A DNA stretch of 64,000 nt, taken from contig NZ_LMUT01000005.1 in the NCBI RefSeq assembly GCF_009765785.1, positions 1 to 64,000 on the forward strand, given 5' to 3'. Shown here piece after piece: positions 15,019-40,611 of the stretch. This stretch comes from Granulicella sp. L46. GTDB lineage: Bacteria; Acidobacteriota; Terriglobia; Terriglobales; Acidobacteriaceae. The first letter of the stretch is position 1. Every line of letters begins with the position of its first letter. The translations under genes were made by a program, and so were the position numbers. The notes below the pieces were generated by a model. It saw only the letters and a list, made by a program, of their open reading frames with translations. It searched no databases and was not told the DNA's origin.

Positions 15019-15630
15019 ATGCGTGGATTCAAATGGATGGTTTGTGCAGGCGCACTCTTGGCTTGTCTGGCACTAGCCCCGACAACGGCTAGCGCACAGG
15101 TCTCAGTTGGCGTTGCCATCGGCGGCCCTCAGTATGGAGTCGTTGGCGGCCCTCCTCCGGGGTGCCAATGGGGCTACTACGACTACGCACCCTATGCCTG
15201 CGTACCGTACGGCTACTACGGTTCCGGCTACTTCTACAACGGCATCTTCCTCGGCGTAGGCCCCTGGGCTTATTGGGGCTACCACCACGGCTGGGGCAAC
15301 TACCGCTTTCACGGCGGTGGCGGCGGTTACTACCGTGGCGATATCTACGGCCATAACGGCGGCTGGCACGGCGGCGACGGCTACCACGGCGGCGGCTACC
15401 ATGGCGACAACGGCTATCACGGCGGCGGCTACCACGGCGACAACGGCTACCACGGTGGTGGCGGCTACCACGGCGACAATGGCTATCACGGCAACGGCGG
15501 TGGCCATCCCAACAACGGCGGCGGCGGACATCCCCAAGGTGGCGGCGGCGGCCACCCACAGGGTGGTGGCGGCGGTCATCCCAGCGGTGGTGGTGGACAC
15601 AGCGGCGGTGGTGGTGGCGGACATCACTAG
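15019..15630 (+). CDS. secreted Gly/His/Tyr-rich repeat protein, copy 1
   Basis: A 203-residue protein with a clear Sec signal (residues 1-26, cleavage ASA-Q). A Tyr/Gly/Trp-rich middle (YGYYGSGYFYNGIFLGVGPW) is shared with the next gene, and the tail is made of short repeats such as GGYHGDNGYHGG and later GGGGHPQGG. The abundant His could bind metal ions; Gly-rich tails are often disordered. The start is the ATG at 15019 because the signal peptide begins there. The N-terminal 110 residues are nearly identical to copy 2, whereas the tails differ completely in repeat unit. The function is unknown. Confidence 0.85.
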   Translation: MRGFKWMVCAGALLACLALAPTTASAQVSVGVAIGGPQYGVVGGPPPGCQWGYYDYAPYACVPYGYYGSGYFYNGIFLGVGPWAYWGYHHGWGNYRFHGGGGGYYRGDIYGHNGGWHGGDGYHGGGYHGDNGYHGGGYHGDNGYHGGGGYHGDNGYHGNGGGHPNNGGGGHPQGGGGGHPQGGGGGHPSGGGGHSGGGGGGHH

Positions 15631-15937
15631 ATAGCGACCATCGCGAAACCAGCGACGAACACAGCACTTCAGCGGCGAGGCCTACAAGCCTCGCCGCGCT
15701 GCTTTAATCCGCCTCTCGAAAGCAACGATATTGCAGGCCGCGCCGCGCAAACAGAACGAACTTCACGCCAACAACCCTGCAATTGCAATCTTTTCGATAC
15801 CCTCGGGCACACCCCGAATAGCCATTCGGCATCCAACGCGAAGCGGTTAGAATTTTCAGCATCTTCGAGGCATTCCAATCCGTGTAAACGTGCCGCTCAC
15901 TCCATCAAACAGCAGCTACTGTCAGTGAGGTCTCAAA
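15631..15937. other. intergenic region between the two paralogues
   Basis: This 307-base spacer contains the terminator at 15672-15697. The rest holds no supported gene and presumably carries the promoter of copy 2. Confidence 0.5.
15672..15705 (+). terminator. GC-rich hairpin terminator after glycine-rich copy 1
   Basis: A perfect 10-bp stem (GCGGCGAGGC at 15672-15681 with 15688-15697) and a 6-nt loop are followed by GCTGCTTTAA, 42 bases after the stop codon. The T-run is short, so efficiency is uncertain. Confidence 0.7.
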
Positions 15938-16723
15938 ATGCGTGGATTCAAATGGATGTTAGCTGCAGGCGCGTTGCTTACCTGCTTGGCCCTCGCTCCA
16001 ACCACGGCGAGTGCGCAGGTCAGCATTGGGATTAACGTCGGAGGCGGACCTCCGAGTTGCCCGTATGGCTACTACGACTACTCCCCCTACAGCTGCGCAC
16101 CCTATGGGTACTACGGCTCCGGGTACTTCTACAACGGCATCTTCCTCGGCGTCGGACCCTGGGCGTACTGGGGCTATAACCACGGCTGGGGCAGTTACCG
16201 GTATCACGGCCCCGGCGGCGGGTATTACCACGGCAATATCTATGGCCGTGGTGGCGGCTATCACGGCGGCGACCACTATCGCTACAACGGTCGTCCTCCC
16301 AGCCATCCACCGGGATATCGTCCGCCCAACAATGGCGGTCACCCGCCCAACTATCGTCCGCCCAACAATGGCGGCAAGCCCCCGAATAACGGTCGCCCTC
16401 CTAACAACGGCGGCAAGCCTCCGAACAACGGACGCCCGCCCAACAATGGCGGCAAGCCTCCTAATAACGGTCGCCCGCCTAGCGGTGGCGGCGGTAAGCC
16501 CCCCAGTGGCGGCGGTGGTCGTCCCCCCAGCGGCGGCGGCGGTAAGCCTCCCAGCGGTGGTGGAGGCCGTCCCCCCAGCGGCGGCGGCGGCGGCAAGCCC
16601 CCCAGTGGCGGTGGAGGTCGTCCCCCCAGCGGTGGCGGTGGTAAGCCTCCCAGCGGCGGTGGCGGACGTCCTCCCAGTGGCGGAGGTAGCGGCAAGCCCA
16701 GCGGCGGCGGCAAGCCCCACTAG
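15938..16723 (+). CDS. secreted Pro/Gly/Asn-rich repeat protein, copy 2
   Basis: A 261-residue paralogue of the preceding gene: same signal peptide (MRGFKWM start, cleavage ASA-Q) and same Tyr/Gly/Trp-rich middle. Its C-terminal half consists of PPNNGGK/PPNNGR units that change into PPSGGGGK/PPSGGGGR units, ending SGGGKPH. The tail is proline-rich and regularly basic rather than His-rich. Such a tail is probably extended and may interact with cell-wall or exopolysaccharide polymers, but this is a guess. The repeats are DNA-level short tandem repeats, so length variation between strains is likely. It is followed by a clear terminator. Confidence 0.85.
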   Translation: MRGFKWMLAAGALLTCLALAPTTASAQVSIGINVGGGPPSCPYGYYDYSPYSCAPYGYYGSGYFYNGIFLGVGPWAYWGYNHGWGSYRYHGPGGGYYHGNIYGRGGGYHGGDHYRYNGRPPSHPPGYRPPNNGGHPPNYRPPNNGGKPPNNGRPPNNGGKPPNNGRPPNNGGKPPNNGRPPSGGGGKPPSGGGGRPPSGGGGKPPSGGGGRPPSGGGGGKPPSGGGGRPPSGGGGKPPSGGGGRPPSGGGSGKPSGGGKPH

Positions 16724-17368: not shown

Positions 17369-17378
17369 CCGGGAGGAA

Positions 17379-17449
17379 GTTCTCAGTTGTTAGTTCTCAG
17401 TTCTTAGTTGAAGGCAAACTGAGAACTGACAACTGAGAACTAAGAACTC
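17379..17449. repeat. inverted pair of heptad-repeat arrays (site 1 of 5)
   Basis: The left arm (17379-17410) is tandem 7-mers of the form TYAGTTS (TCAGTTG, TTAGTTC, TCAGTTC, TTAGTTG). After a short spacer the right arm (17417-17449) carries the reverse-complement units (AACTGAG, AACTGAC, AACTAAG). The arms can fold into a long hairpin. The same unit recurs at 29156, 29770, 35626 and 40035. Confidence 0.85.
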
Positions 17450-28093: not shown

Positions 28094-28763
28094 GCCGGGA
28101 GGGATGCCGAGTTGCCTGATCGGCTGATATCGGGGCGAGAGAAATGTTGACGCTAATGCGCCGACTTGATACAGTTAGAAGGTTCCGCGAGTATCCGGAA
28201 CGTGCCGTCACGAAGAGGCTCGGCGGGCTTTGGCCTGCGATACACTGGATACAAGAGATTCACCGCAGGATTCGCCAGGAAAGTTGAGGGTGGATCAGTA
28301 AGTCTGCGGTTGGCGAAATGCCTATCTAATCGCGCCTGCGACACCCTCCTCCCCACTGTGCCACGGTGGGACCCCATGGGGATGGGCTATGTGGGCCGGA
28401 ACAGCGAAACGGAGTTGAGTCGTTGGGCGGCTTGAAAGAGCTGGTCTGATGCACCTCGGCCACCGTCGACTGTTATTTCGTTTGATTTGAGTGGTTTGCA
28501 GTTGTTGTTGGTAGTGCGCGCAGTCAGTCGTACGGCCGTGTGCAGGATTCAGAACTTCGCCGAAGCGTGTTTTTCTTCTTGAATGGAGAAAATGCATGCT
28601 TCGCCTTCCGTGCGTCCGGGTTGGATTTCTGGCGTGTGGGAAGAAGAGCGAGAGGCGCTGCCCTGCACCGAGCCCGAACAAATGGTTTCGGGTAGTTACT
28701 GCCTTAGGGTGGTGATTGCTAACAGGAAGTCGCTGGACTTCTGAAGTTCTAAGGAGCAGTAAA
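28094..28763 (+). other. 670-base leader and intergenic region upstream of rpsL
   Basis: No convincing gene lies here. It contains the strong promoter candidate at 28147-28175. A 53-codon frame (28583-28744) with non-committal composition ends just before the rpsL ribosome site. If the promoter at 28147 drives rpsL, the mRNA has a leader of nearly 600 bases, long enough for regulatory structure or a small RNA. Confidence 0.5.
28147..28175 (+). promoter_or_regulatory. sigma-70-type promoter upstream of the str/S10/spc cluster
   Basis: TTGACG (28147-28152) and TACAGT (28170-28175) are separated by exactly 17 bases. It is the best promoter match found between the STAS gene and rpsL, and presumably drives the ribosomal cluster. 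Confidence 0.65.
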
Positions 28764-29147
28764 GTGCCTACGTTTCATCAGCTCGTCAAGCAGGGCCGGA
28801 CGCCGACCCGCTACAAGACCGCATCGCCTGCACTGCAGGGCTCGCCGCAGCGTCGCGGTGTTTGCACTCGCGTGTACACGCAGACCCCCAAGAAGCCGAA
28901 CTCGGCGTTGCGCAAGGTTGCGCGCGTGCGTTTGACCAACGGCATTGAAGTTACGACCTACATTCCGGGCATTGGCCACAACCTGCAGGAGCACTCGATT
29001 GTGCTGATCCGCGGCGGCCGTGTGAAGGATTTGCCGGGTGTTCGTTACCACGTGGTTCGCGGAACGCTGGATTCGGTTGGTGTTGCTAATCGCAAGCAGA
29101 GCCGCTCGAAGTACGGCGCAAAGAGGCCGAAGGCTAGCAGCAAGTAG
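28764..29147 (+). CDS. rpsL: 30S ribosomal protein S12
   Basis: 127 residues from GTG 28764, 7 bases after AAGGAG. A small-subunit protein at the decoding centre. The [10 protein letters not shown] loop and the [13 protein letters not shown] loop are both present; they carry the lysines (E. coli 42/43 and 87/88) whose mutation gives streptomycin resistance, and both are wild type. The C-terminus is a few residues longer than E. coli (KRPKASSK). First gene of the str cluster, 143 bases before rpsG with heptad repeats between them. Confidence 0.98.
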
Positions 29148-29155
29148 AGATTTGG

Positions 29156-29228
29156 GTTCTCAGTTCTTAGTTGTCAGTTCTCAGTTAGAGCTGGCGTAAC
29201 TAACAACTGAGAACTAACAACTGAGAAC
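29156..29228. repeat. inverted heptad-repeat arrays in the rpsL-rpsG spacer (site 2)
   Basis: The left arm 29156-29186 has TYAGTTS units (TCTTAGTTGTCAGTTC). The right arm 29197-29228 has the reverse complements (AACTAACAACTGAGAAC). The arms pair almost fully and leave a loop of about 10 bases. It fills most of the spacer inside a highly expressed operon. Confidence 0.85.
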
Positions 29229-29290
29229 GTTTCAACAGGCCCAGCTCGTGAGAGGTTCACCGCGCTGGGGGAAGAAGAGAAAGAAGAGAG

Positions 29291-29761
29291 ATGCCGAGAA
29301 AAGGTTACATTGCCAAGCGTGAAGTTCCAGCTGACCCGATCTATGGGTCGACGCTGGTAACGAAGTTCGTCAACAGCATGATGTGGGGCGGCAAGAAGTC
29401 GACTGCCCAGGGCATCTTCTATGAGGCCATGACCAACCTTGAGGCAAAGGGTGGGGATGAGGCGCTGAAGCTGTTCAAGAAGGCTGTTGAGAACGTGAAG
29501 CCGATGCTGGAAGTGAAGAGCCGCCGCGTTGGCGGTGCGAACTACCAGGTGCCGATCGAAGTGCTGCCGGAGCGGCGCACGTCGCTGGCGATTCGCTGGC
29601 TGGTAACTTACGGTCGCGCTCGTGGCGAAAAGGGAATGGTTGAGAAGCTCACCGCTGAGCTGCTCGACGCAGCCAATGGCCGCGGCGCCGCGATGAAGAA
29701 GAAGGAAGACGTTCATCGTATGGCCGAGGCGAATAAGGCGTTCGCGCACTATCGCTGGTAA
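29291..29761 (+). CDS. rpsG: 30S ribosomal protein S7
   Basis: 156 residues, normal length. Starts [20 protein letters not shown], with the conserved [16 protein letters not shown] and [11 protein letters not shown] segments and the C-terminal [14 protein letters not shown]7 nucleates assembly of the 30S head and contacts E-site tRNA. In E. coli it is the translational repressor of the str operon; whether that holds here cannot be seen. Preceded by GAAGAGAG and flanked on both sides by heptad-repeat spacers. Confidence 0.98.
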
Positions 29762-29769
29762 AGAGAGTT

Positions 29770-29839
29770 ATTAGATGTCAGATGTCGGTTGTTAGTTAGA
29801 ACGGCTTTACTAACAACTGACAACTAAGAACTAAGAACC
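29770..29839. repeat. degenerate inverted heptad arrays in the rpsG-fusA spacer (site 3)
   Basis: The left arm is decayed (about 29770-29798, ending GGTTGTTAGTTA). The right arm 29809-29839 keeps clear units (TAACAACTGACAACTAAGAACTAAG). Same 7-base unit as the sites at 17379, 29156, 35626 and 40035. Confidence 0.8.
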
Positions 29840-29877
29840 TGCAAGCTTCGGCTTGCGCACAAAGAAAAGGAATCACC

Positions 29878-31971
29878 GTGGCTCGCACAGTACCTCTACA
29901 AAAATGCCGCAACATTGGCATCATGGCTCACATCGACGCCGGCAAGACGACGACGACCGAGCGCATTCTCTTCTATACGGGTGTCAACCACCGTATCGGC
30001 GAAGTGCACGAGGGGACCGCGACGATGGACTGGATGGAGCAGGAGCAGGAGCGTGGCATCACGATCACCTCTGCTGCGACAACCTGTACGTGGGACGGCA
30101 TTCGCATCAACATCATTGATACCCCGGGCCACGTGGATTTCACGGCCGAGGTTGAGCGTTCGCTGCGCGTGCTCGATGGCGCGGTGGCTTGCTTTGATTC
30201 GGTGCAGGGTGTACAGCCGCAGTCTGAGACTGTCTGGCGCCAGGCGAACAAGTACAAGGTTCCGCGCATTTGCTTCATCAACAAGATGGACAAGGCTGGC
30301 GCGAACTTTGAGTACGCGACGTCGACCTTGGTAGCGCGTCTTGGTGCGAAGGCGATTCCGATTCAGATCCCGATTGGCGAAGAGGCCAAGTTTCTTGGGG
30401 TCGTTGACCTGGTCGAGATGAAGGCGATTCTGTGGCACGACGAGACCATGGGCGCGAAGTATGACGTCGCCGAAGTTCCTGCGGCGCTGAGGGAGAACGC
30501 TGAGAAGCTGCGCACGGAGTTGATCGAGGCCGTTGCCGACTCCGATGAAGACGTGATGCACAAGTACCTCGAGGGCGAGGAGATCACGATTCCGGAGCTG
30601 AAGAAGGCAATTCGCAAAGCTACGATCGCGATGCACGTGTTCCCGGTGCTATGTGGTTCGTCCTTCAAGAACAAGGGTGTGCAGACGCTGTTGGACGCGG
30701 TTGTCAATTACCTGCCGAGTCCGCTGGATGTTCCTCCGATTGAGGGCACCGAGCCAGGCGAGCCGGAAGTGAAGCTCGTTCGTCATGCTGACGATACGGA
30801 GCCGCTCGCTGCGTTGGGTTTCAAGATCATGACTGACCCGTTTGTTGGTCAGCTGATCTTCATCCGGATCTACTCGGGAATTTTGAAGACGGGTGATTCG
30901 GTGTTGAATCCTCGCACCGGCAAGACGGAGCGCATTGGGCGTTTGCTGAAGATGCATGCGAACAAGCGCGAAGAGATTACAGAGATCATGGCAGGTGATA
31001 TCTGCGCCGCCGTGGGTCTGAAGAATCTGAACACGGGCGACACGATCTGCAGCGACAAGGCACCGATTCTGTTGGAGTCGATTGACTTCCCGGCGCCGGT
31101 TATTGAAGTTGCGGTTGAGCCGAAGACGAAGGTTGACCAGGAAAAGATGGGCATGGCTCTGGCGAAGCTCGCACAGGAAGATCCTACGTTCAAGGTTCGC
31201 ACCGATATCACGAATGGTCAGACGATCATCTCGGGTATGGGCGAGCTGCATCTCGAGATCATTGTTGACCGCATGATGCGCGAGTACAAGGTCGAGGCGA
31301 ACGTCGGCAAGCCGCAGGTGAACTACCGCGAGACGATCCGCGCGAACGCTGAGGCGGAAGGCAAGTACATTCGGCAGACGGGTGGCTCGGGTAACTATGG
31401 CCACGCGAAGATTCGCATCTCGCCGAATGAGCCGGGCAAGGGCTACGAGTTCTCGAATGACACCAAGGGCGGCACGATTCCCAAGGAGTACATCAAGCCG
31501 ATCGACCAGGGCATTCAGGAAGCGTTGCTGGGCGGAATCCTGGCCGGCTACGAGATGGTCGACGTCAAGGTGAGCTTGTACGACGGCAGCTATCACGATG
31601 TTGACTCGAACGAAATGGCGTTCAAGATTGCCGGATCGATGGCGTTCAAGGAAGCTGCGCGCAAGGCCAAGCCGGTATTGCTCGAGCCGGTGATGGCAGT
31701 GGAAGTCACGGTTCCCGAGGAGTACATGGGTACGATCATTGGCGACTTGAACAGCCGCCGTGGCCGGATCGAAGGCATGGAGATGGTTGGCGGCGTGCAG
31801 GCAATCAAGGCAACCGTGCCGCTGTCGACGATGTTTGGTTATGCGACCGCGATGCGCGGATCGACGCAGGGCAGGGCCAACTTCTCGATGGAGTTCAAGC
31901 AGTACGAGGAAGCACCCCGCTCGGTCTCAGAAGAGATTATCGCGAAGGTGCAGGGCAAGGACAGCAAGTAA
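29878..31971 (+). CDS. fusA: elongation factor G
   Basis: 697 residues from GTG 29878, preceded by AAAAGGAA. A translocation GTPase. G-domain motifs are all present: [15 protein letters not shown] (P-loop), RGITITSA (switch I), DTPGHVDF (G3) and NKMD (G4), followed by domains II to V with the usual [12 protein letters not shown] segment in domain V. Length and motifs fit a canonical EF-G1 rather than EF-G2. It lies in the standard str order between rpsG and tuf. Confidence 0.98.
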
Positions 31972-32072
31972 CTACCAGCCGCGCGCTGGAGCCAGCGAGT
32001 TTAGCTGGCGCGCGCAAAACGGAATCAGGCGCTACGTAACGGCCTTTGAATTTTGGTACTACGGAGAGAGTC

Positions 32073-33260
32073 ATGGCGAAGGAAAAATTTGATCGCAGCA
32101 AGCCGCACGTAAACATTGGAACGATCGGACACATCGATCATGGCAAAACGACGCTGACGGCGGCGATTACGAAGGTGCTGTCGAAGCATAATCCGAAGAA
32201 CAGCTTCCGCTCGTTCGACACGATCGACAACGCTCCCGAAGAGCGTGAGCGCGGCATCACGATCTCGACTTCGCACGTGGAGTATGAGACGCCGAACCGC
32301 CACTATGCGCACGTCGATTGCCCGGGCCACGCGGATTACATCAAGAACATGATCACCGGCGCAGCGCAGATGGATGGCGCGATTCTTGTGGTCGCCGCTA
32401 CCGACGGCCCGATGCCCCAGACCAAGGAGCATGTGCTGCTTGCTCGTCAGGTTGGCGTTCCGTTCATCGTCGTGTTCCTGAACAAGTGCGATGCGGTTGA
32501 AGACGAAGAGCTGATTGAGCTGGTGGAGATGGAAGTCCGCGAGCTGCTGTCGAAGTACGATTACCCGGGCGACGATACACCGATCATCCGCGGTTCTGCA
32601 CTTGGTGCGCTCAATGGCGAAGCCCAGTGGGAAGCGAAGATCGACGAGCTGATGGCGGCGGTGGACAAGTTCATTCCGCAGCCGGAGCGCGCGGTGGATC
32701 TGCCCTTCCTGATGCCGATCGAGGATATCTTCTCGATCTCTGGCCGTGGAACGGTGGTTACCGGCCGTATCGAGCGCGGCAAGATCAAGGTTGGCGAGGC
32801 TGCATCGATCGTCGGCTTCCGCGACACGCAGGCGACTGTCGTTACCGGCGTTGAGATGTTCAAGAAGCAGCTGGATGAAGGTCTGGCGGGCGATAACGCT
32901 GGTCTTCTTCTGCGCGGTATCGCGAAGGAAGATGTTGAGCGCGGGATGGTGTTGGCGAAGCCCGGTTCGATTACGCCGCACACCGTGTTCAAGGGCGAGG
33001 TTTACGTTCTGAGCAAGGAAGAGGGCGGGCGTCACACTCCGTTCTTCAACGGCTATCGTCCTCAGTTCTATTTCCGGACCACGGACGTGACCGGATCGGC
33101 GAAGCTGCCGGAAGGTACCGAGATGGTGATGCCGGGCGATAACATCTCGCTTGAGATCACGCTGCACACGCCGGTTGCCATGGAGAAGGGTCTGCGCTTC
33201 GCGATTCGTGAAGGCGGCCGGACTGTGGGCGCGGGTACGATCTCCGAGATCATCAAGTAA
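32073..33260 (+). CDS. tuf: elongation factor Tu
   Basis: 395 residues from ATG 32073 ([20 protein letters not shown]), preceded by GGAGAG; an earlier in-frame codon at 32046 is not conserved. Delivers aminoacyl-tRNA to the ribosome. Motifs: [27 protein letters not shown]. The hinge and domain II/III sequences are complete. The fusA-tuf spacer has a hairpin (GCCAGC/GCTGGC at 31991-31996 and 32004-32009) inside GCGCGC repeats. Only one tuf copy is in the window. Confidence 0.98.
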
Positions 33261-33360
33261 GCGATCTCGAAACGACTAACGAGGGCTGCCGGTTCGCCGA
33301 GAGGTATGACGGCCGGCAGTCACTCCAAACGATCTTTGAGTACCAAGAAAGAGATTTGAC

Positions 33361-33678
33361 ATGGCACAGCAACGCATTCGTATCCGCCTGAAGGCTTATG
33401 ACTACCGCGTTCTCGACGTCTCCACGAGCGAGATTGTTGAGACCGCAAAGCGCACGGGCGCACAGGTTGCGGGACCGATTCCCCTACCGACGATGAAGAA
33501 CAAGTATTGCGTTCTGCGTTCGCCACACGTCGATAAGAAGTCGCGCGAGGCTTTCGAGATTCGCACGCACAAGCGTTTGATCGACATTCTCGAGCCGACG
33601 CAGCAAACGGTCGATGCGCTGATGAAGCTTGATCTGCCGGCTGGTGTGGACGTCGAGATTAAGACCGTTACCAAGTAA
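33361..33678 (+). CDS. rpsJ: 30S ribosomal protein S10 (NusE)
   Basis: 105 residues, normal length. [19 protein letters not shown] at the N-terminus and [31 protein letters not shown] are diagnostic. Besides its ribosomal role S10 is the antitermination factor NusE and partners NusB, encoded at 19401. Opens the S10 part of the cluster 100 bases after tuf; that spacer holds a CTGCCGG/CCGGCAG stem (33286-33292 with 33313-33319). Confidence 0.98.
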
Positions 33679-33766
33679 CTGGTCGTGAGTTTGAAGTAGC
33701 AAGTTGGAAATTGCAGTACCTACAGTGCAGGCGCTCAACGCCACGCATGATGAGGAAGAGGAAATT

Positions 33767-34504
33767 ATGAGCGTTACAGGAATTCTGGGTAAGAAGATTG
33801 GCATGACGCAGCTGTTCGACGACCGCGGCGACATTCATCCCGTCACGGTGTTGAAGGTTGGCCCGTGCGTGATCACGCAGCTGAAGACGGTTGCCAAGGA
33901 CGGCTATGATGCCGCACAGATTGGTCTCGTTGAGTTCGTCAAGGCGTCGAAGGTGAACAAGGCGATGACTGGCCACTTTGCCAAGTCGAATGTGCCGCCG
34001 GTTCGCGAGATCCGTGAGGTTCAGTTGGAGTCAGTTACTGGCGGCGAAGATGATCAGACAGCCAAGGCTGGCGATCGCATTACTGTCGAGATCTTCAACG
34101 AGACGAAGTTTGTGGACGTGATTGGCAACTCCAAGGGCCGCGGGTTTGCGGGCGTTGTTCGCCGTCACGGATTCGGCGGCGGTCCCAAGTCGCACGGACA
34201 TATGTTCCAGGTGCAGGGTTCGATTGGCGCCTCGTCGTTTCCTTCGCGCGTGTTTCCTGGGCAGCGTATGCCGGGTCACATGGGCACTAACCAGGTGACG
34301 GTTCGCAACCTGCGCATTCGCGGCATCGATGTGGAAGACAATCTTCTGCTGGTTGAGGGTGCGGTTCCGGGAGCTCGGGACGGTTACGTCCTGGTTTCCA
34401 AGTCGAAGGCGCCACCGAGAGAACGTCGTGGATTTGCAGGTGCTGAGACGCGCGATGCGTTGAAGGCTTCCAAGAAGGCAGCAGCCGGCGGCAAGAAGAA
34501 GTAA
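33767..34504 (+). CDS. rplC: 50S ribosomal protein L3
   Basis: 245 residues from ATG 33767, after a GAGGAAGAGGAAA ribosome site; an upstream frame to 33704 is not family-like. Contains [36 protein letters not shown] and [16 protein letters not shown]. It is about 35 residues longer than E. coli L3, mostly a charged C-terminal tail ending AAAGGKKK. L3 is an early assembly protein near the peptidyl-transferase centre. Confidence 0.97.
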
Positions 34505-34656
34505 GATCCTGCGCGGATGGCGAGAGGCGCCTTTGGCGCATAAGCCAGAAGCGAGTGAAGTATAGAAACAACCTCTGCGCGGGGAACAGACCGAGAACGC
34601 AGACGAACAAGAGATAGGCCCGCGGCAACGATCGCGGGCAAGAAGAGAGAATAGCG

Positions 34657-35325
34657 ATGGCAAGCATCAAGGTAGTGAATCTCGGCGGGAAGGAAGTCGG
34701 GACATTTGAGCTCGACGAGATCTTCGCGGGCGAGGTAAATGAGGCATTGCTCTGGGAGTCGGTGAAGCACTATCGTGCGAGCCTGCGCCAGGGAACAGCT
34801 GCGACCAAGAACCGTAAGGCGGTTTCGGGTGCTGGCAAGAAGCTTTGGAAGCAAAAGGGAACCGGCCGCGCTCGCGTGGGTTCGATTCGTACTCCTCTCT
34901 GGCGTGGCGGCGGTACGGTCCACGGACCTCAGCCGCGCAGCTACGAATACCAGTTTCCGCGCAAGAAGCTGATGGGCGCGCTGCGTTCGGCGATTGCTTC
35001 GAAGATCAACGACGGCAAGCTGACGATCGTTGAGAACTTCGATGTTGTCGAGGCGAAGACCAAGGTCTACCGCGAAGCGTTGAACACGTTGGATGCGAAG
35101 AAGACGGCGCTGCTGGTCGAGACCTCGCAACAGTTGAACGAGAAGCTGTATCTCGGATCGCGGAACCTGCAGGGTGTTGAGCTGGTGCTCTCCTCTGAGG
35201 TTCATCCGTATGACTTGTTGAAGTATGAGAACGCTATTTTCTCGAAGGCTGCGTTCGAGACCCTGACGGAGACGCTGAAGAAGAGTGTTTCCAAGCGGCA
35301 GCACGCCGAGAAGGAGGCTGCATAA
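34657..35325 (+). CDS. rplD: 50S ribosomal protein L4
   Basis: 222 residues. Contains the RNA-binding loop KKLWKQKGTGRARVGSIRTP and WRGGGTVHGPQPRSY, diagnostic of L4, which lines the exit tunnel. In Proteobacteria L4 also represses the S10 operon through its leader. The 152-base spacer before it has no repeats, but the gene directly abuts rplW with no gap. Confidence 0.97.
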   Translation: MASIKVVNLGGKEVGTFELDEIFAGEVNEALLWESVKHYRASLRQGTAATKNRKAVSGAGKKLWKQKGTGRARVGSIRTPLWRGGGTVHGPQPRSYEYQFPRKKLMGALRSAIASKINDGKLTIVENFDVVEAKTKVYREALNTLDAKKTALLVETSQQLNEKLYLGSRNLQGVELVLSSEVHPYDLLKYENAIFSKAAFETLTETLKKSVSKRQHAEKEAA

Positions 35326-35619
35326 ATGCCTACCCTATATAACGTAATTCGCCGCCCGTTGATTACCGAGAAGGCCCTGACCACGCGTGAAGTGGAAGGC
35401 TCGTTGGTATTCGAAGTGGCTGCCAATGCAACGAAGACCGAAGTCAAGCAAGCGGTTGAAACGCTGTTCAATGTGAAGGTGGCGAGCATTCGCACCGCTA
35501 GCGTTGTCGGCAAAGAGCGCAAGCGCGGACGCTATGCAGGTTTCCTGCCCGACTGGAAGAAGGCGTATGTACGCCTGAAGGCCGGCGAGAAAGTTCCTGA
35601 TTTCGCAGCAGAGATCTAG
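35326..35619 (+). CDS. rplW: 50S ribosomal protein L23
   Basis: 97 residues, normal length. YNVIRRPLITEKALTTREVEG and the KVASIRTASVVGKERKRGRYAG loop identify L23, the docking site of trigger factor and SRP at the tunnel exit. The ATG follows the rplD stop immediately, so translation is coupled; the AGAAGGAGG inside the end of rplD serves as ribosome site. Confidence 0.97.
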   Translation: MPTLYNVIRRPLITEKALTTREVEGSLVFEVAANATKTEVKQAVETLFNVKVASIRTASVVGKERKRGRYAGFLPDWKKAYVRLKAGEKVPDFAAEI

Positions 35620-35625
35620 TACTAC

Positions 35626-35695
35626 GTTGTCAGTTCTCAGTTGTTAGTTCTCAGCAGAAGCATTTACTGATAACTGAGAACTGACAACTAAGAAC
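35626..35695. repeat. inverted heptad-repeat arrays in the rplW-rplB spacer (site 4)
   Basis: The left arm 35626-35654 (GTTGTCAGTTCTCAGTTG type) and right arm 35668-35695 (ATAACTGAGAACTGACAAC type) are reverse complements, separated by 13 bases. The arrangement is the same as sites 1 and 2. Confidence 0.85.
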
Positions 35696-35758
35696 CCAAA
35701 GCACCATGTATCGCGCTCACCAAGAAGTCAGCACTTAGCGCGGCAAAGGAATAGCAAC

Positions 35759-36589
35759 ATGCCGATTAAATCATTTCGTCCGATCACGCCGACCCTTCGC
35801 TTTCAGACGAAGCTGGTCAACGATGACATTACGACCGACAAGCCGCATAAGCCGCTGCTGTCGGTAAAGCCACGCACTGGCGGCCGCAACAATATGGGCA
35901 AGCTGGTTGTTCGCCACCAGGGCGGCGGGCACAAGCAGAAGTTGCGCCTCATCGACTTCAAGCGCGACAAGTTCGGTGTTCCGGGCACGGTCGCTACGAT
36001 CGAGTACGATCCCAACCGTAGCTCGCGCATTGCGCTCGTCCATTACGCCGATGGTGAGAAGCGCTACATCATTCAGCCGATCGGGCTGAAGGTGGGGCAG
36101 AAGATCATGAGCGGCCCTGAGGCCGATATCCTGGTCGGCAACGCTCTGCCGCTCAAGAACATTCCGACGGGTACGATCGTGCACAACATCGAGCTGCGTC
36201 CTGGTAAGGGCGCGCAGATGGCGCGTTCGGCTGGTGCCCAGGTTAATTTGATTGCCAAGGAAGGCGACTACGCACTTCTGAAGCTGCCCTCTGGCGAGAC
36301 CCGCAAGGTGCTCGTGGAGTGCATGGCGACCATTGGCCAGGTTGGCAATACGGATCACGAGAACGTCACGATCGGTAAGGCTGGACGCAACCGGTGGAAG
36401 GGCATTCGCCCAGCCAACCGTGGCGTTTCGATGAACCCGGTCGATCACCCGCACGGTGGTGGTGAAGGTAAGACCTCGGGCGGACGCCATCCAGTGACGC
36501 CGTGGGGTCAGCCGACTCGTGGCTATAAGACTCGTAATAACAAGCGGACCGATGTGTTTATCGTGACGCGCCGGAATAAGGGCAAGTAA
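35759..36589 (+). CDS. rplB: 50S ribosomal protein L2
   Basis: 276 residues, normal length. Contains [27 protein letters not shown] and the highly conserved [14 protein letters not shown] segment near the peptidyl-transferase centre with its essential His. Starts at ATG 35759 with an AAAGGAA site. Required for subunit association and peptide-bond formation. Follows a 139-base spacer containing heptad repeats. Confidence 0.98.
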
Positions 36590-36675
36590 GCATTTGCAGT
36601 TAGGGAAGTAAAAGCTACACCAAGTCTCGTACCTGAGAGATTCGTCGTATTCAGCACCGCAGTATGGAGTGAGTT

Positions 36676-36960
36676 ATGTCACGTTCAACGAAGAAGGGCC
36701 CGTTCATCGACGCCCACCTGATGATCAAGATCGAGGCGATGAACACCGCCAACGAGAAGAAGGTCATCCGCACCTGGTCGCGCCGCTCGACGATCCACCC
36801 GGATATGGTGGGTCACACGATTGCTGTGCACAACGGCCGCAAGTTCATCCCGGTCTATTGCACGGAGAACATGGTGGGCCACAAGCTGGGAGAGTTCTCG
36901 GCGACGCGCACGTTCAAGGGCCACTCGGCGAAGGCTGGCGACACGGCGAAGGGCAAGTAA
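36676..36960 (+). CDS. rpsS: 30S ribosomal protein S19
   Basis: 94 residues, normal length. Starts [15 protein letters not shown], with [26 protein letters not shown] and the end [14 protein letters not shown]19 sits in the 30S head next to S13 and contacts A-site tRNA through its tail. Standard position between rplB and rplV, with a TGGAGTGAG ribosome site. Confidence 0.98.
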
Positions 36961-37016
36961 GCCGTCGCAGGCAGTGATTAGGATTCGACAGATTTGTACG
37001 TTTGAAGGACATCGCA

Positions 37017-37541
37017 ATGCATAAAGCAATTGAAACAAAGAATACCGAGTTTCGTGCTGAGGCCCGCTTCCAGCGCTGCAGCCCGCAGAAGGCCAAGCTG
37101 GTGCTTGACCTGATCAAAGGTCTGCGCGTGGAGAAGGCAATCAACACCGTGGCCTTCACCAACAAGCGCATCGCGCCGGTGGTGGAGAAGGTGCTGCGCT
37201 CGGCGGTCCAGAATGCTCAGCATTTGTCGGATGAGCGTGGACTCGACATCGACATCGACAACCTGTACGTCAAGACCGCGGTCGCGAACGAGGGACCGCG
37301 GATGAAGCGCATCCGCCCTGCTCCAATGGGCCGTGCGTTCCGTTACCAGCGCCGCATCGCGCACATCATCATCACGGTGGCAGAGAAGAAGGCTGCCGGT
37401 GCTGAGGTTGAGGCGACGACGGCGCCGGTGAAGGCGACCGCAGGCAAGCCCGCAGCGAAGAAGGCGGCGGCGAAGAAGTCTCCAGCAAAGAAGGCCGCGG
37501 CGAAGAAGGCTCCGGCAAAGAAGAAGGCTGTCGCCAAGTAG
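37017..37541 (+). CDS. rplV: 50S ribosomal protein L22 with a Lys/Ala-rich C-terminal tail
   Basis: 174 residues from ATG 37017 (GAAGGA 6 bases upstream). The first ~122 residues are a normal L22: ARFQRCSPQKAKLVLDLIKG, the tunnel beta-hairpin AQHLSDERGLDID, and RIRPAPMGRAFRYQRRIAHI. Residues 123-174 form an extra tail of Ala, Lys and Pro in near-repeats (AAKK, SPAKK, APAKK), like histone H1 or Hc1 tails. E. coli L22 has 110 residues. The tail probably adds rRNA contacts on the subunit surface. Confidence 0.96.
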   Translation: MHKAIETKNTEFRAEARFQRCSPQKAKLVLDLIKGLRVEKAINTVAFTNKRIAPVVEKVLRSAVQNAQHLSDERGLDIDIDNLYVKTAVANEGPRMKRIRPAPMGRAFRYQRRIAHIIITVAEKKAAGAEVEATTAPVKATAGKPAAKKAAAKKSPAKKAAAKKAPAKKKAVAK

Positions 37542-37631
37542 TTGGGCGGGAGTTACAACGATTTTGCAGTAAGTGGATCTTAACAATCACCGCGCCGGCT
37601 CAACCGGCTATGGTTCAGGAATAGGGAAGCT

Positions 37632-38303
37632 ATGGGACAGAAAGTCCATCCGTACGGATTCCGCCTCGGCGTCAACAAGCCCTGGAAGTCACGCTGGTTT
37701 ATCGAGCGCGGCTACGACAAGCTGCTGGTCGAGGACGTGAAGTTGAAGGCAGAGCTTCGCGAGAAGCTCAAGGCTGCCGGCGTGAGCTCGGTAGAAGTTG
37801 AGCGGCCGGGCAACAAGTTGCGGCTGATCATCCGCACCGCACGTCCGGGCATCATCATCGGGCGCAAGGGCGCGGAGATCGACAAGCTCAAGGCCGATAT
37901 CCAGAAGCGCACCAGCCGCGAGGTGTTTATTGACATCCTCGAGGTCAACAAGCCGGAGCTCGACGCTCAGCTGGTGAGCGAGAATATCGCCCTGCAGCTG
38001 GAGAAGCGCGTCAGCTTCCGCCGCGCCATGCGTAAGAGCGTGGATTCGGCGCTGCGGTTTGGTTGCAAGGGCATCAAGGTCCGCGTTTCGGGCCGCCTGA
38101 ATGGCAACGAGATCGCTCGGTCGGAGTGGTATCTGCAGGGACGTCTGCCGCTGCATACGCTGCGCGCTGATATTGACTACGGGTTCTCCGAGGCGCACAC
38201 CACCTATGGAATCATTGGTGTGAAGACCTGGGTTTATCGCGGCGATATCTACGAGCAGAAGAAGCGTCGCGAGCCGGCAGTCATTACCACCGGCGCGTTC
38301 TAA
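37632..38303 (+). CDS. rpsC: 30S ribosomal protein S3
   Basis: 223 residues, normal length. [20 protein letters not shown] start, the KH domain with [15 protein letters not shown] (GxxG loop), and the C-terminal [23 protein letters not shown] block. S3 lies at the mRNA entry tunnel and contributes to helicase activity. A GGGAAG site precedes the start. The following spacer of 185 bases carries a hairpin. Confidence 0.98.
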
Positions 38304-38322
38304 CTTTTCTTTGTGTTTCGGG

Positions 38323-38361
38323 AATCCGTGGCGAGCTTTTTCCACGGATTTCCGGTATACT
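38323..38361 (+). promoter_or_regulatory. hairpin and -10-like box in the rpsC-rplP spacer
   Basis: A 9-bp stem AATCCGTGG/CCACGGATT (38323-38331 with 38342-38350), with a loop ending in TTTTT, is followed at once by TATACT (38356-38361), a good -10 hexamer lacking a clear -35. It could be an internal promoter or a partial attenuator within the largest internal spacer of the S10 cluster (185 bases). Confidence 0.4.
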
Positions 38362-38488
38362 TAACAGGTTTGGCCCCGAGTCTGCCCGTATCGAAGGCGT
38401 AAAGCTGGAGATGTTGTGGCAGAGACCCCGGTCAGCACCTAAGCCGTTCCCCTGAGAAGTTGACAGGTTTGTTCAAAGGAAATTCCTC

Positions 38489-38923
38489 ATGCTTTTACCC
38501 AAGAAGGTTAAGTATCGCAAGCAGCAGCGCGGTCGCATGTGCGGCAAGGCGTGGCGTGGCTCCGACATCTCGTTCGGCGACTACGGTTTGAAGGTTCTGG
38601 AGTGCGGTTACATTACCGACCGCCAGATCGAAGCCAGCCGTATTGCCATGACGCGGTTCATCAAGCGTGGCGGCAAGGTTTGGCTGCGTTTGTTCCCGGA
38701 CAAGCCAATCACGAAGAAGCCAGCCGAAACCCGTATGGGTAAAGGTAAGGGCGCTCCGGATCACTGGGTCGCTGTCGTTCGTCCGGGCAAGATTTTGTTC
38801 GAGATGGAAGGCGTTCCCGTTGAGTTGGCCAAAGAGGCGATGCGTCTCGCGGCTCACAAGCTTCCGCTCAAGACCACGTTCGTTGTACGCCCCGGCCTCA
38901 AGGTCGAAGTGGCTGCTAAGTAA
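38489..38923 (+). CDS. rplP: 50S ribosomal protein L16
   Basis: 144 residues. [24 protein letters not shown] start, then [25 protein letters not shown] and a normal end. A late-assembly protein that positions A-site tRNA. An AAAGGAAATT ribosome site lies upstream. The conserved Arg of the RMGKGKG loop (hydroxylated in E. coli) is present. Confidence 0.98.
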
Positions 38924-38952
38924 TAGCCGTTCAGGCGAGAAAGAAGTTATTT

Positions 38953-39186
38953 ATGGAAATCGACAAGATCCGCAACATGAGCGATGACGAGTTGAAGAGT
39001 GAAGAGGCGAAGGCCGCTGAGCAGCTCTTCCGCATTCGCTTCGCGAAGAGCCTCGGAAAGCAGGAGGGGATTGGCAAGATCAAGTCCCTCAAGCTGGATA
39101 TCGCAAAGTTTAAAACAATCAGCAAAGAGCGTTCGCTCGCGGCGGTTGGAACGAAGACAACAGCTGCCAAGGCAGGGAAGGAATAA
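38953..39186 (+). CDS. rpmC: 50S ribosomal protein L29
   Basis: 77 residues, within the family range (60-75 plus a short basic tail). Contains the helix [26 protein letters not shown], the diagnostic LFxLRF-like element. Located 29 bases after rplP and 2 bases before rpsQ, the tightest packing in the cluster. L29 lies at the tunnel exit with L23. Confidence 0.96.
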
Positions 39187-39188
39187 TC

Positions 39189-39521
39189 ATGGCTGAGACC
39201 ACTGTCACTACCCCCGTCGCCGAGCAGGCTGCACCGCGTCGTACCGAGAAGGTTGGCCTGGTTGTTTCGACCAAGATGGAGAAGACCATCGTTGTCGAGA
39301 TCGAGATGCGCAAGGCTCACCCGAAGTACAAGCGGGTGCTGAAGTCCAACAAAAAGTTTTATGCGCATGACGAGCAGAACTCGGCGCGCGTTGGCGACAT
39401 GGTTCGCATCCGCGAGACGCGTCCGCTATCGAAGCTGAAGCGCTGGTCGTTGGAAGAGATCATTCGCCGGTCGTCGTTGTCGGCGCTGCCGGATGAGAAG
39501 CCGGTTGTCGTAGCAAAGTAG
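39189..39521 (+). CDS. rpsQ: 30S ribosomal protein S17 with N-terminal extension
   Basis: 110 residues, about 25 more than E. coli. The core starts near residue 20: [30 protein letters not shown], then [24 protein letters not shown], diagnostic of S17. The extra N-terminus is Thr/Ala-rich and probably disordered. The start at 39189 is supported by GGAAGGAA and by 2-base spacing after rpmC; there is no other in-frame start before the core. Confidence 0.96.
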
Positions 39522-39659
39522 TTGAGCGGTTTTAAGGTTTTGCGGCTGAGGTTTTGGCCGCGCAGCACGAGATAGCAACGGCTTCCCGCCGCCAAGCTCT
39601 CGAGCAAGTTTCACCTCTCGAACCAGTATTCGGCGAGAGCTTGAACCAGGAGAATCATC

Positions 39660-40031
39660 ATGGCAGTTCAAATGCGCACTATCCTTGCCGTCGCCGATAA
39701 TTCGGGCGCCCGCAAGCTCCAGGTCATCCTGCCGCTCGGCGGCGGTCTCGGCAAGAAGGCCGGCCTTGGCGATGTGGTTACGGCAGCGGTGAAAGAAGCG
39801 TCGCCGGATGGCACGGTCAAGAAGGGCAAGGTCGTCAAGGCGGTCATCGTCCGGACGCACAAGGAGTATCGCCGCCGGGATGGAACGTACATCCGCTTCG
39901 ACGAGAATGCCGCGGTCGTCATCAATGACGCGATGGAGCCCGTTGGCACGCGCGTATTTGGACCGGTTGCACGCGAGTTGCGCGATAAGAAGTTCCTGAA
40001 GATCGTTTCGCTCGCGCCTGAAGTTATCTAG
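39660..40031 (+). CDS. rplN: 50S ribosomal protein L14
   Basis: 123 residues, normal length. [23 protein letters not shown] at the start and [35 protein letters not shown] identify it. L14 forms the inter-subunit bridge region. AGGAGAATC ribosome site. A 138-base spacer precedes it and a one-armed heptad array follows. Confidence 0.98.
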
Positions 40032-40034
40032 AGG

Positions 40035-40065
40035 CAGTTGTCAGTTGTTAGTTTTCAGTTGTTAG
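40035..40065 (+). repeat. single-arm heptad array in the rplN-rplX spacer (site 5)
   Basis: CAGTTG, TCAGTTG, TTAGTTT, TCAGTTG and TTAGT occur in tandem; the opposite arm seen at the other sites is missing. It shows the unit can exist without the inverted partner, or that one arm was lost. Confidence 0.8.
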
Positions 40066-40123
40066 TGAATCGGATTCCGACTCCGTAGGGTCGAGCCCGC
40101 TAGAGCGGGGAAAGGTAATAAAG

Positions 40124-40495
40124 ATGCCGAACAAGTTCAAGCCGACCGCAGGCAGCAAGTCGAAGATCCGGATCAAGCGCAACGATATGGTTGTGGTGAT
40201 TGCGGGTAAGGATAAGGGACCGAAGGCTCACCGCGTACTGCGGGTGATCGTCGACAAGCAGCGCGTGCTGGTCGAGGGCGTTGGGATGATCAAGAAGCAC
40301 ATGAAGCCGAATCCGCAGAAGAACGTGGCGGGCGGCATCCTGGAGCAGGAGGCGCCGATCCACATCTCGAACGTGATGCTGGTCGACTCCGAAGGCAAGG
40401 GAACGCGCGTTGGGTACCAGGTTGAAGGCGATAAGAAGACACGCATTGCCCGTACGACCGGCGGCGTGATTGCCGAGAAGAAGTTCAAAAAGTAG
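40124..40495 (+). CDS. rplX: 50S ribosomal protein L24
   Basis: 123 residues. KIRIKRNDMVVVIAGKDKGPKAHRVL is the KOW motif. Then KHMKPNPQKNVAGGILEQEAPIHISNVML is typical of L24. The N-terminus is about 10-15 residues longer than E. coli (MPNKFKPTAGSKS). L24 initiates 50S assembly. AAAGGTAATAAAG ribosome region. Confidence 0.97.
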   Translation: MPNKFKPTAGSKSKIRIKRNDMVVVIAGKDKGPKAHRVLRVIVDKQRVLVEGVGMIKKHMKPNPQKNVAGGILEQEAPIHISNVMLVDSEGKGTRVGYQVEGDKKTRIARTTGGVIAEKKFKK

Positions 40496-40611
40496 TTGGG
40501 TAAGTTGGATCAGACGCAGGCTCTAAGTTGAGTCGAAAGTAAATTGAGTACCCCACGAAACGGTATACAGCGCAAGCTACTCCGGAACCGTGGAGAAAGA
40601 GAAGAGAGATC

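Follow-up and report, generated by a model that had tools for sequence, protein, structure and literature searches.

Heptad arrays in the ribosomal-protein operon of Granulicella sp. L46

We analyzed a stretch of 64,000 nucleotides (nt) from Granulicella sp. L46 (contig NZ_LMUT01000005.1, positions 1 to 64,000; hereafter the window), in which arrays of a tandemly repeated 7-base unit occupy spacers between ribosomal-protein genes. The gene string that carries them encodes, by Pfam, S12, S7, EF-G, EF-Tu, S10, L23, L2, L14, L24 and L5. A preliminary description of this DNA had reported four arrays (at 29156, 29770, 35626 and 40035) inside one operon, three of them as inverted pairs. All four were found at these positions; arrays 1, 2 and 3 are inverted pairs and array 4 is a single arm (Table 1). 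They do lie in the ribosomal-protein operon, but the repeat is not confined to it: a fifth array, again an inverted pair and absent from the preliminary description, is situated outside the operon at 17378-17448, and 57 sites were found genome-wide.

The repeated unit is AGTT(C/G)T(C/T) (AGTTSTY) with a few variants, and a period of 7 was found in 5/5 window arrays. The three-unit pattern AGTTNTNAGTTNTNAGTT matched the window 15 times, compared to none in 100 dinucleotide-preserving shuffles. When the arrays were folded as RNA and compared with shuffles, the four inverted pairs gave z-scores between -4.3 and -9.3 (Table 1). No intrinsic terminator (a G+C-rich stem followed by a T run) was present at the arrays, and the region 28700-40600 contained 7 terminator-like sites compared to 11.4 in shuffles; with no such site at any array, we reject a role of the arrays as intrinsic terminators. 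An Rfam scan of 26000-48000 gave 4 matches (E 0.2-0.89), all under the gathering score and none at an array.

Genome-wide distribution and host genes

In the 5.48-Mb draft genome, AGTTNTNAGTTNTNAGTT matched 164 times, and we therefore reject the view that the arrays are specific to the ribosomal operon; the same pattern read backwards matched 0 times. The matches group into 57 sites, a count that covers only sites with three or more intact units. Their surroundings were surveyed in the window itself and, for the sites beyond it, in 47 further stretches, with genes called by a codon-usage script (which misplaced the fusA start at 29923 instead of 29878). None of the 57 sites was located wholly within a called gene, and some overlapped a gene end; the exception, seen by alignment only, is a degenerate array inside a thiamine pyrophosphate (TPP)-enzyme (acetolactate-synthase-like) gene of the same genome. 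Sites lay between co-directional genes in 36 cases, convergent genes in 14 and divergent genes in 7, and convergent gaps were preferred to divergent ones (14:7) in comparison with array-free spacers in the same stretches (29:44, p 0.046). Co-directional arrays began a median of 13 nt past the stop codon, 30 of the 36 within 30 nt of it, and ended a median of 73 nt ahead of the next start, only 10 within 30 nt; at several sites the stop codon itself was provided by the array. Where runs neighbored each other within 150 bp, AGTT preceded AACT in 22/22 cases. Single arrays occurred in both orientations relative to the gene (8 and 14).

An upstream gene was assigned to 49 sites; left out were 8 sites (the 7 divergent ones and one whose nearest stop is 583 nt away), and one at 314 nt was kept. 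Translation genes, encoding S12, S7, L23, L14, S9, L33 and IF-1, were found upstream in 7 of these 49 sites, and the remaining 42 upstream genes were diverse or without Pfam match and not translation genes. With a translation-gene share assumed at 60 of 5000 genes, 0.6 such hosts would be expected (P 2e-6).

Ribosomal hosts in other phyla

A search for four-unit arrays in named genomes returned at least 118 stretches, which form a sample in which some share one genome. Those listed came from Cyanobacteria, Bacteroidota, Planctomycetota, Acidobacteriota, Nitrospirota, Thiocystis and others. Ribosomal and translation proteins of the window matched 11 of the 118 listed stretches, and in 5 of the 118, from five phyla, the array was located in a ribosomal-protein operon. 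By its likeness to the named loci, the window genome groups with Acidobacteriota, its IF-1 being 86% like that of Acidobacteriaceae bacterium bog_399. The arrays in ribosomal-protein operons lie in rplW-rplB (the same spacer as window array 3) and rplB-rpsS of a Nitrospirae metagenome-assembled genome (MAG), rplB-rpsS and rplP-rpmC of a Phycisphaerales MAG, rplR-rpsE and rplX-rplE of Dolichospermum circinale, rpsK-rpsD and rpmJ-rpsM of an Acidobacteriaceae MAG, and rpmJ-rpsM of a Levyibacteriota MAG. The gene names rpsB, rpmC and mpl are our own presumed assignments, Pfam giving Mur ligase for mpl. The second Nitrospirae array has fewer than four intact units; without it, 8 of 124 array clusters fall in the five ribosomal stretches, among the stretches listed. 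The chance of finding at least 5 in the 118 listed stretches is 1e-4 if the ribosomal share of a genome is assumed to be 0.4%, and 0.007 at 1%. Polarity among the stretches listed, at least 118, was AGTT-AACT in 20 cases and the reverse in 1, with 13 pairs of same-direction neighbors. Ribosomal-protein spacers are over-represented as hosts, both here and in other phyla, an enrichment based on 7 of the 49 host genes, on 5 of the 118 listed stretches and on assumed values for the gene share and the 0.4-1% ribosomal genome share. Heptads have ribosomal-protein spacers as hosts in at least five phyla.

Unit turnover at the same spacers in relatives

Of 28 same-genus genomes, counting that of the window, 23 yielded rpsG, and the operon stretch was obtained for 20 of the remaining 22 (G019 and G022 omitted); many relatives' contigs end after fusA or tuf, so that later spacers were covered in fewer genomes. 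The ribosomal spacers are bipartite, with a variable portion after the stop codon and a conserved portion before the next gene. In 45 post-stop parts of relatives without AGTT arrays, a class set by the strict pattern that includes at least one spacer (G015 rpsG-fusA) with clearly diverged AGTT units, the match was 0.390 at lag 7 and 0.385 at lag 14, compared to 0.22-0.28 at most other lags, and period 7 was individually significant (p<0.01) in 20 of the 45. The lag-7 match of the conserved parts was 0.300. The units in the relatives' spacers included GGTTSTY (G012), CGTTSTA (G027) and AGGGANY (G006 and G025), and other spacers carried hairpins without heptads or no hairpin. In the comparison across sister species that the preliminary description had suggested, the same spacers often contained period-7 hairpins made from units other than AGTTSTY.

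The conserved downstream parts of the spacers (29229-29290, 29839-29877, 35696-35758, 40067-40123 and 40496-40611) contain hairpin-like stretches conserved across the same-genus genomes and have no Rfam match above chance; they are possible ribosomal-protein leader elements.

The alternative units also occur elsewhere in the genomes. AGTTSTY matched in 23 of 61 related genomes (maximum 151, G000), AGGGANY in 18 of 28 (maximum 90, G006, and only 1 in G000), GGTTSTY in 6 of 28 (maximum 19, G012) and CGTTSTA in 1 of 28; reversed-pattern controls were nonzero for some of the alternative-unit searches (AGGGANY up to 32, G019), because such a pattern, when reversed, may hit these very arrays in another frame. 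Downstream of rpsI (S9), an AGTT pair in G000 and an AGGG pair in G001 occupy the same place, and downstream of rpmG, a one-heptad difference and an inverted loop distinguish G000 from G013. Among three arrays compared between G001 and G022, which are about 93% alike, two, situated within open genes, are the same in both genomes and have C instead of T exactly where an in-frame TAG would arise; the third lies between genes, and its left arm is identical and its right arm different. At one codon position of a Mur-ligase gene, 5 of 24 genomes carry an array in frame, in four unit variants; 17 genomes have no insertion there, and 2 have two or four extra residues without heptads. Since four of the five carriers form one clade, an in-place change of the unit is probable within it.

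In four stretches (L251 and L245 of G001, L256 of G015 and L255 of G027), AGGGANY arms flank or adjoin T-tailed, terminator-like hairpins, and in L251 the loops of two terminator-like interiors are mutually inverted.

Hairpins at the ribosomal spacers

The variable part of the rpsL-rpsG spacer folded with z below -2 in 18 of 20 genomes (the window genome and 19 relatives), whatever its sequence, and among the spacers without heptad periodicity 8 of 9 still folded strongly. As controls we used array-free co-directional spacers of the window genome, 10 of 44 of which folded with z below -2; pooled ribosomal spacers without heptad periodicity folded better than these (p 8e-4). Strong folding was found in 6 of 9 rplW-rplB, 2 of 5 rplN-rplX and 2 of 3 rplX-rplE spacers. 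To judge from these predicted folds, structure seems to be wanted at one spacer, rpsL-rpsG.

Comparison with described repeats

The window arrays belong to the bacterial heptamer-repeat (STRR) class, as judged from a unit equal to that of csR1 of Nostoc PCC 7120, from their dispersal over the genome and from the presence of such arrays in many phyla. The description of this class is said to date from 1990. Like its members, the window arrays have a tandem 7-bp unit, are dispersed in many copies that are mainly intergenic, and share their unit with described repeats, the TTGTCAG unit of csR1 being present in them. In the published work, csR1 of Nostoc sp. PCC 7120 is given as ttgtcagttgtcagttgtca, with 44 genome copies, and is placed in the hupS-asr0689 spacer (PMC2408588), and for STRR hairpins a part in stabilizing transcripts or in coupling translation is suggested (PMC2670836). 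Both in cyanobacteria and here, 7-bp tandem units are located in intergenic operon spacers (PMC2408588, PMC2670836). However, csR1 itself is listed as forming no hairpin (PMC2408588), whereas most ribosomal arrays here are opposed pairs; moreover, the STRR repeats were described in cyanobacteria, whereas the present ones are found in another phylum and in ribosomal-protein operons.

Earlier descriptions of heptamer repeats concern cyanobacteria (PMC2408588, PMC2670836) and Beggiatoaceae (PMC4679880). Neither the function nor the origin of these repeats is settled, and the open-access literature that we searched contained no report of such repeats in Acidobacteria. The TAACTGA heptads of Beggiatoaceae, cyanobacteria and Bacteroidetes are of the same family (reverse complement TCAGTTA) and come from overlapping phyla; their hosts include fusA, L3, S4 and S1, with translation genes over-represented, and some copies lie in genes or overlap stop codons (PMC4679880). 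They differ in being a single exact unit that mostly lies directly ahead of start codons, with one inverted case in 170 (PMC4679880), whereas the arrays of the window genome have variable units, lie behind stops and are mostly opposed pairs. The exact TAACTGA unit does not hold for our arrays, in which the fifth place of AGTTNTN is C, G or T in the window, with an A variant at few other sites; neither does a position a few nt before a start codon, given the medians of 13 nt past stops and 73 nt before the next start.

In the P6b stem of the Nostoc tRNA-Leu intron, 7-nt repeats are present on both sides, and Class I replaces Class II while the stem stays (PMC4476775). This parallels our arrays in a stem made from heptads, changes in 7- or 14-nt steps and a class swap with the stem kept; however, it concerns one site within a group I intron and not a dispersed spacer repeat (PMC4476775). 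REP and REPIN sequences, with their RAYT (Y1) transposase, are likewise extragenic hairpins dispersed in many copies, but REPs are presented as palindromes of 20-40 bp (PMC3116915, PMC3733652), whereas the arms here are tandem heptads. We found no link to Y1 (RAYT) comparable to that of REP/REPIN, there being 1 match in G000 and no significant correlation over 28 genomes; no search was made for a transposase beside the arrays.

What is new is the behavior of heptad arrays at orthologous ribosomal spacers. With about 20 genomes of one genus, such spacers allow unit, copy number and hairpin to be compared; period and polarity stay while the letters change.

Interpretation and alternatives

We favor, with guarded confidence, the reading that the AGTT arrays are a self-homogenizing repeat of the STRR/heptamer class that is tolerated downstream of stop codons and, at some ribosomal spacers, is retained in hairpin form. 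Slippage and template switching would gain, lose and homogenize units within an array, with the letters drifting and the period of seven staying. Arrays would arise at many sites, and the stretch after a stop codon and before the conserved leader of the next gene would tolerate them best. Once transcribed, a pair could form a hairpin that begins about where the terminating ribosome ends. At rpsL-rpsG, and perhaps at other ribosomal-protein spacers, this hairpin would seemingly be kept by selection, a heptad array being one exchangeable way of building it; its putative job may be to protect the upstream message against 3' decay or to keep the translation of adjacent genes apart. The comparison makes two questions testable, namely whether the stop-proximal hairpin at rpsL-rpsG is needed and which process makes units of exactly seven.

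Several results weigh against this reading. Array 4, the single arm, has no strong fold (z -0.7). At rpsG-fusA there is no consistent hairpin, only 11 of 21 spacers, and 4 of 10 without periodicity, folding strongly. The hairpin comparison itself draws on related genomes, takes its controls from one genome and lacks the rpsL-rpsG spacer of G004, which was dropped by a length filter. Furthermore, the letters of the two arms matched no better than those of swapped arms (0.72 vs 0.756; 1733 of 2000 permutations at least as good), and neither did their binding energy (3674 of 5000 permutations at least as good). Neither the letter test nor the energy test therefore supports site-specific pairing between arms, a result that speaks against selection for exact pairing and also against the arms being mutual copies. 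The preliminary description had offered a mobile repeat tolerated in spacers as one view of the arrays; the 57 dispersed sites, the 42 of 49 hosts that are not translation genes, and the other units and in-gene copies in relatives agree with it. Its other proposal, that the structures act on the ribosomal mRNA, gains from that hairpin (18 of 20) and from the over-representation of ribosomal hosts and loses by rpsG-fusA (11 of 21), the chance-level arm matching and the absence of a terminator-like site. Each of the two views thus seems correct in part.

Purely neutral spread, in which slippage-prone heptads collect where they are harmless and both the ribosomal location and the hairpins are by-products, is a possible, if doubtful, account. 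It fits with upstream genes that are mostly unrelated (42 of 49), with arms of a pair that are not matched to each other, with one-armed sites and with one clade of relatives that has none of the four tested units. However, it leaves unaccounted for the rpsL-rpsG hairpin in 8 of 9 relatives without heptad periodicity, as well as the over-representation of ribosomal hosts (7 of 49, P 2e-6; 5 of 118 listed stretches, P 1e-4 to 7e-3; both on assumed gene shares). A regulatory network, in which the heptads bind a protein such as S1, Csp or CsrA, as the Beggiatoaceae study proposes for TAACTGA (PMC4679880), we consider unlikely. Ribosomal-protein and translation-factor hosts are common to the window genome and the TAACTGA case, and polarity is conserved; but the arrays lie behind stops (30 of 36 within 30 nt) and not before starts (10 of 36 within 30 nt), single arrays have no uniform orientation relative to the gene (8 one way and 14 the other), and species differ in the unit that a given spacer carries, a variation that recognition by a sequence-specific protein would not allow.

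That the opposed arms are the terminal repeats of a mobile element, moved by a transposase or reverse transcriptase, is very unlikely. Pairs do have a fixed polarity, and among 14 arrays listed from G001, which also include copies inside genes, 3 share a 32-base order and 3 more are one base off. However, G000, the genome richest in AGTT arrays, has 1 Y1-transposase match (33.7 bits, above the cut-off), reverse transcriptase was matched neither there nor in G006, which has 90 AGGGANY matches, and interiors and flanks vary between sites. Over 28 genomes the Spearman correlation was 0.37 (p 0.054) for Y1 and -0.04 (p 0.84) for reverse transcriptase. We reject the reverse transcriptase as heptad maker, with no match in G000 or G006, and likewise the Y1/RAYT transposase, with no significant trend. 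Just as improbable is that the arrays are scars of DNA end repair, left by an activity that would add seven-base units to exposed 3' ends, telomere-like, before rejoining. Such scars would give a fixed polarity, arms that are not copies of each other and yet share the genome's unit, one-armed arrays, arbitrary interiors and lineage-specific units. Ku was found in 19 of 28 genomes, of which G008 and G011 have no match of the four tested units; among the 9 Ku-negative genomes, six lack all four units and G020, G013 and G012 have 1, 19 and 24 matches, G012 and G013 being less complete genomes that are Ku-negative yet carry heptads. Among the 19 near-complete genomes, heptad matches were found in every one of the 16 that have Ku, four of which had just 1 to 4, and in none of the 3 that lack it. 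On the tree, which does not include G010 and G020, a single clade comprises the five genomes that lack both heptads and Ku. The association of Ku with heptads fits loosely and follows mainly one clade; it is no more than a lead, and we retain Ku only as part of the end-repair reading.

Coordinates and other features of the window

Table 1. Array arms and upstream host genes in the window
Feature	Position	Strand	Context	Folding z-score
Array 1, 5' arm (AGTTSTY type)	29156..29186	+	8 nt past rpsL stop codon	
Array 1, 3' arm	29198..29228	-	Opposed to 5' arm	-4.9 (pair)
Array 2, 5' arm (degenerate)	about 29771..29797	+	rpsG-fusA spacer; read from the sequence, missed by strict pattern	
Array 2, 3' arm	29809..29838	-	Pattern match	-4.3 (pair)
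Array 3, 5' arm	35626..35654	+	6 nt past rplW stop codon	
Array 3, 3' arm	35666..35695	-		-9.3 (pair)
Array 4, single 5' arm	40035..40066	+	3 nt past rplN stop codon	-0.7
Array 5, 5' arm	17378..17409	+	9 nt past stop of open reading frame without Pfam match	
Array 5, 3' arm	17417..17448	-		-7.8 (pair)
rpsL (S12)	28764..29147	+	Upstream host of array 1; Pfam PF00164	
rpsG (S7)	29291..29761	+	Upstream host of array 2; Pfam PF00177	
rplW (L23)	35326..35619	+	Upstream host of array 3; Pfam PF00276	
rplN (L14)	39660..40031	+	Upstream host of array 4; Pfam PF00238	

The EF-Tu gene of the window (32069-33259) has a second copy on the same contig (L118 3921-5111) with 96% DNA identity, and contigs of relatives often end near the EF-Tu gene. 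Long G+C-rich tandem repeats with periods of 18, 24, 33, 39, 48 and 99, which probably code for a repetitive protein, occupy 15357-16711. Near 20000, the GC skew changes from negative (16-20 kb) to positive (20-24 kb).

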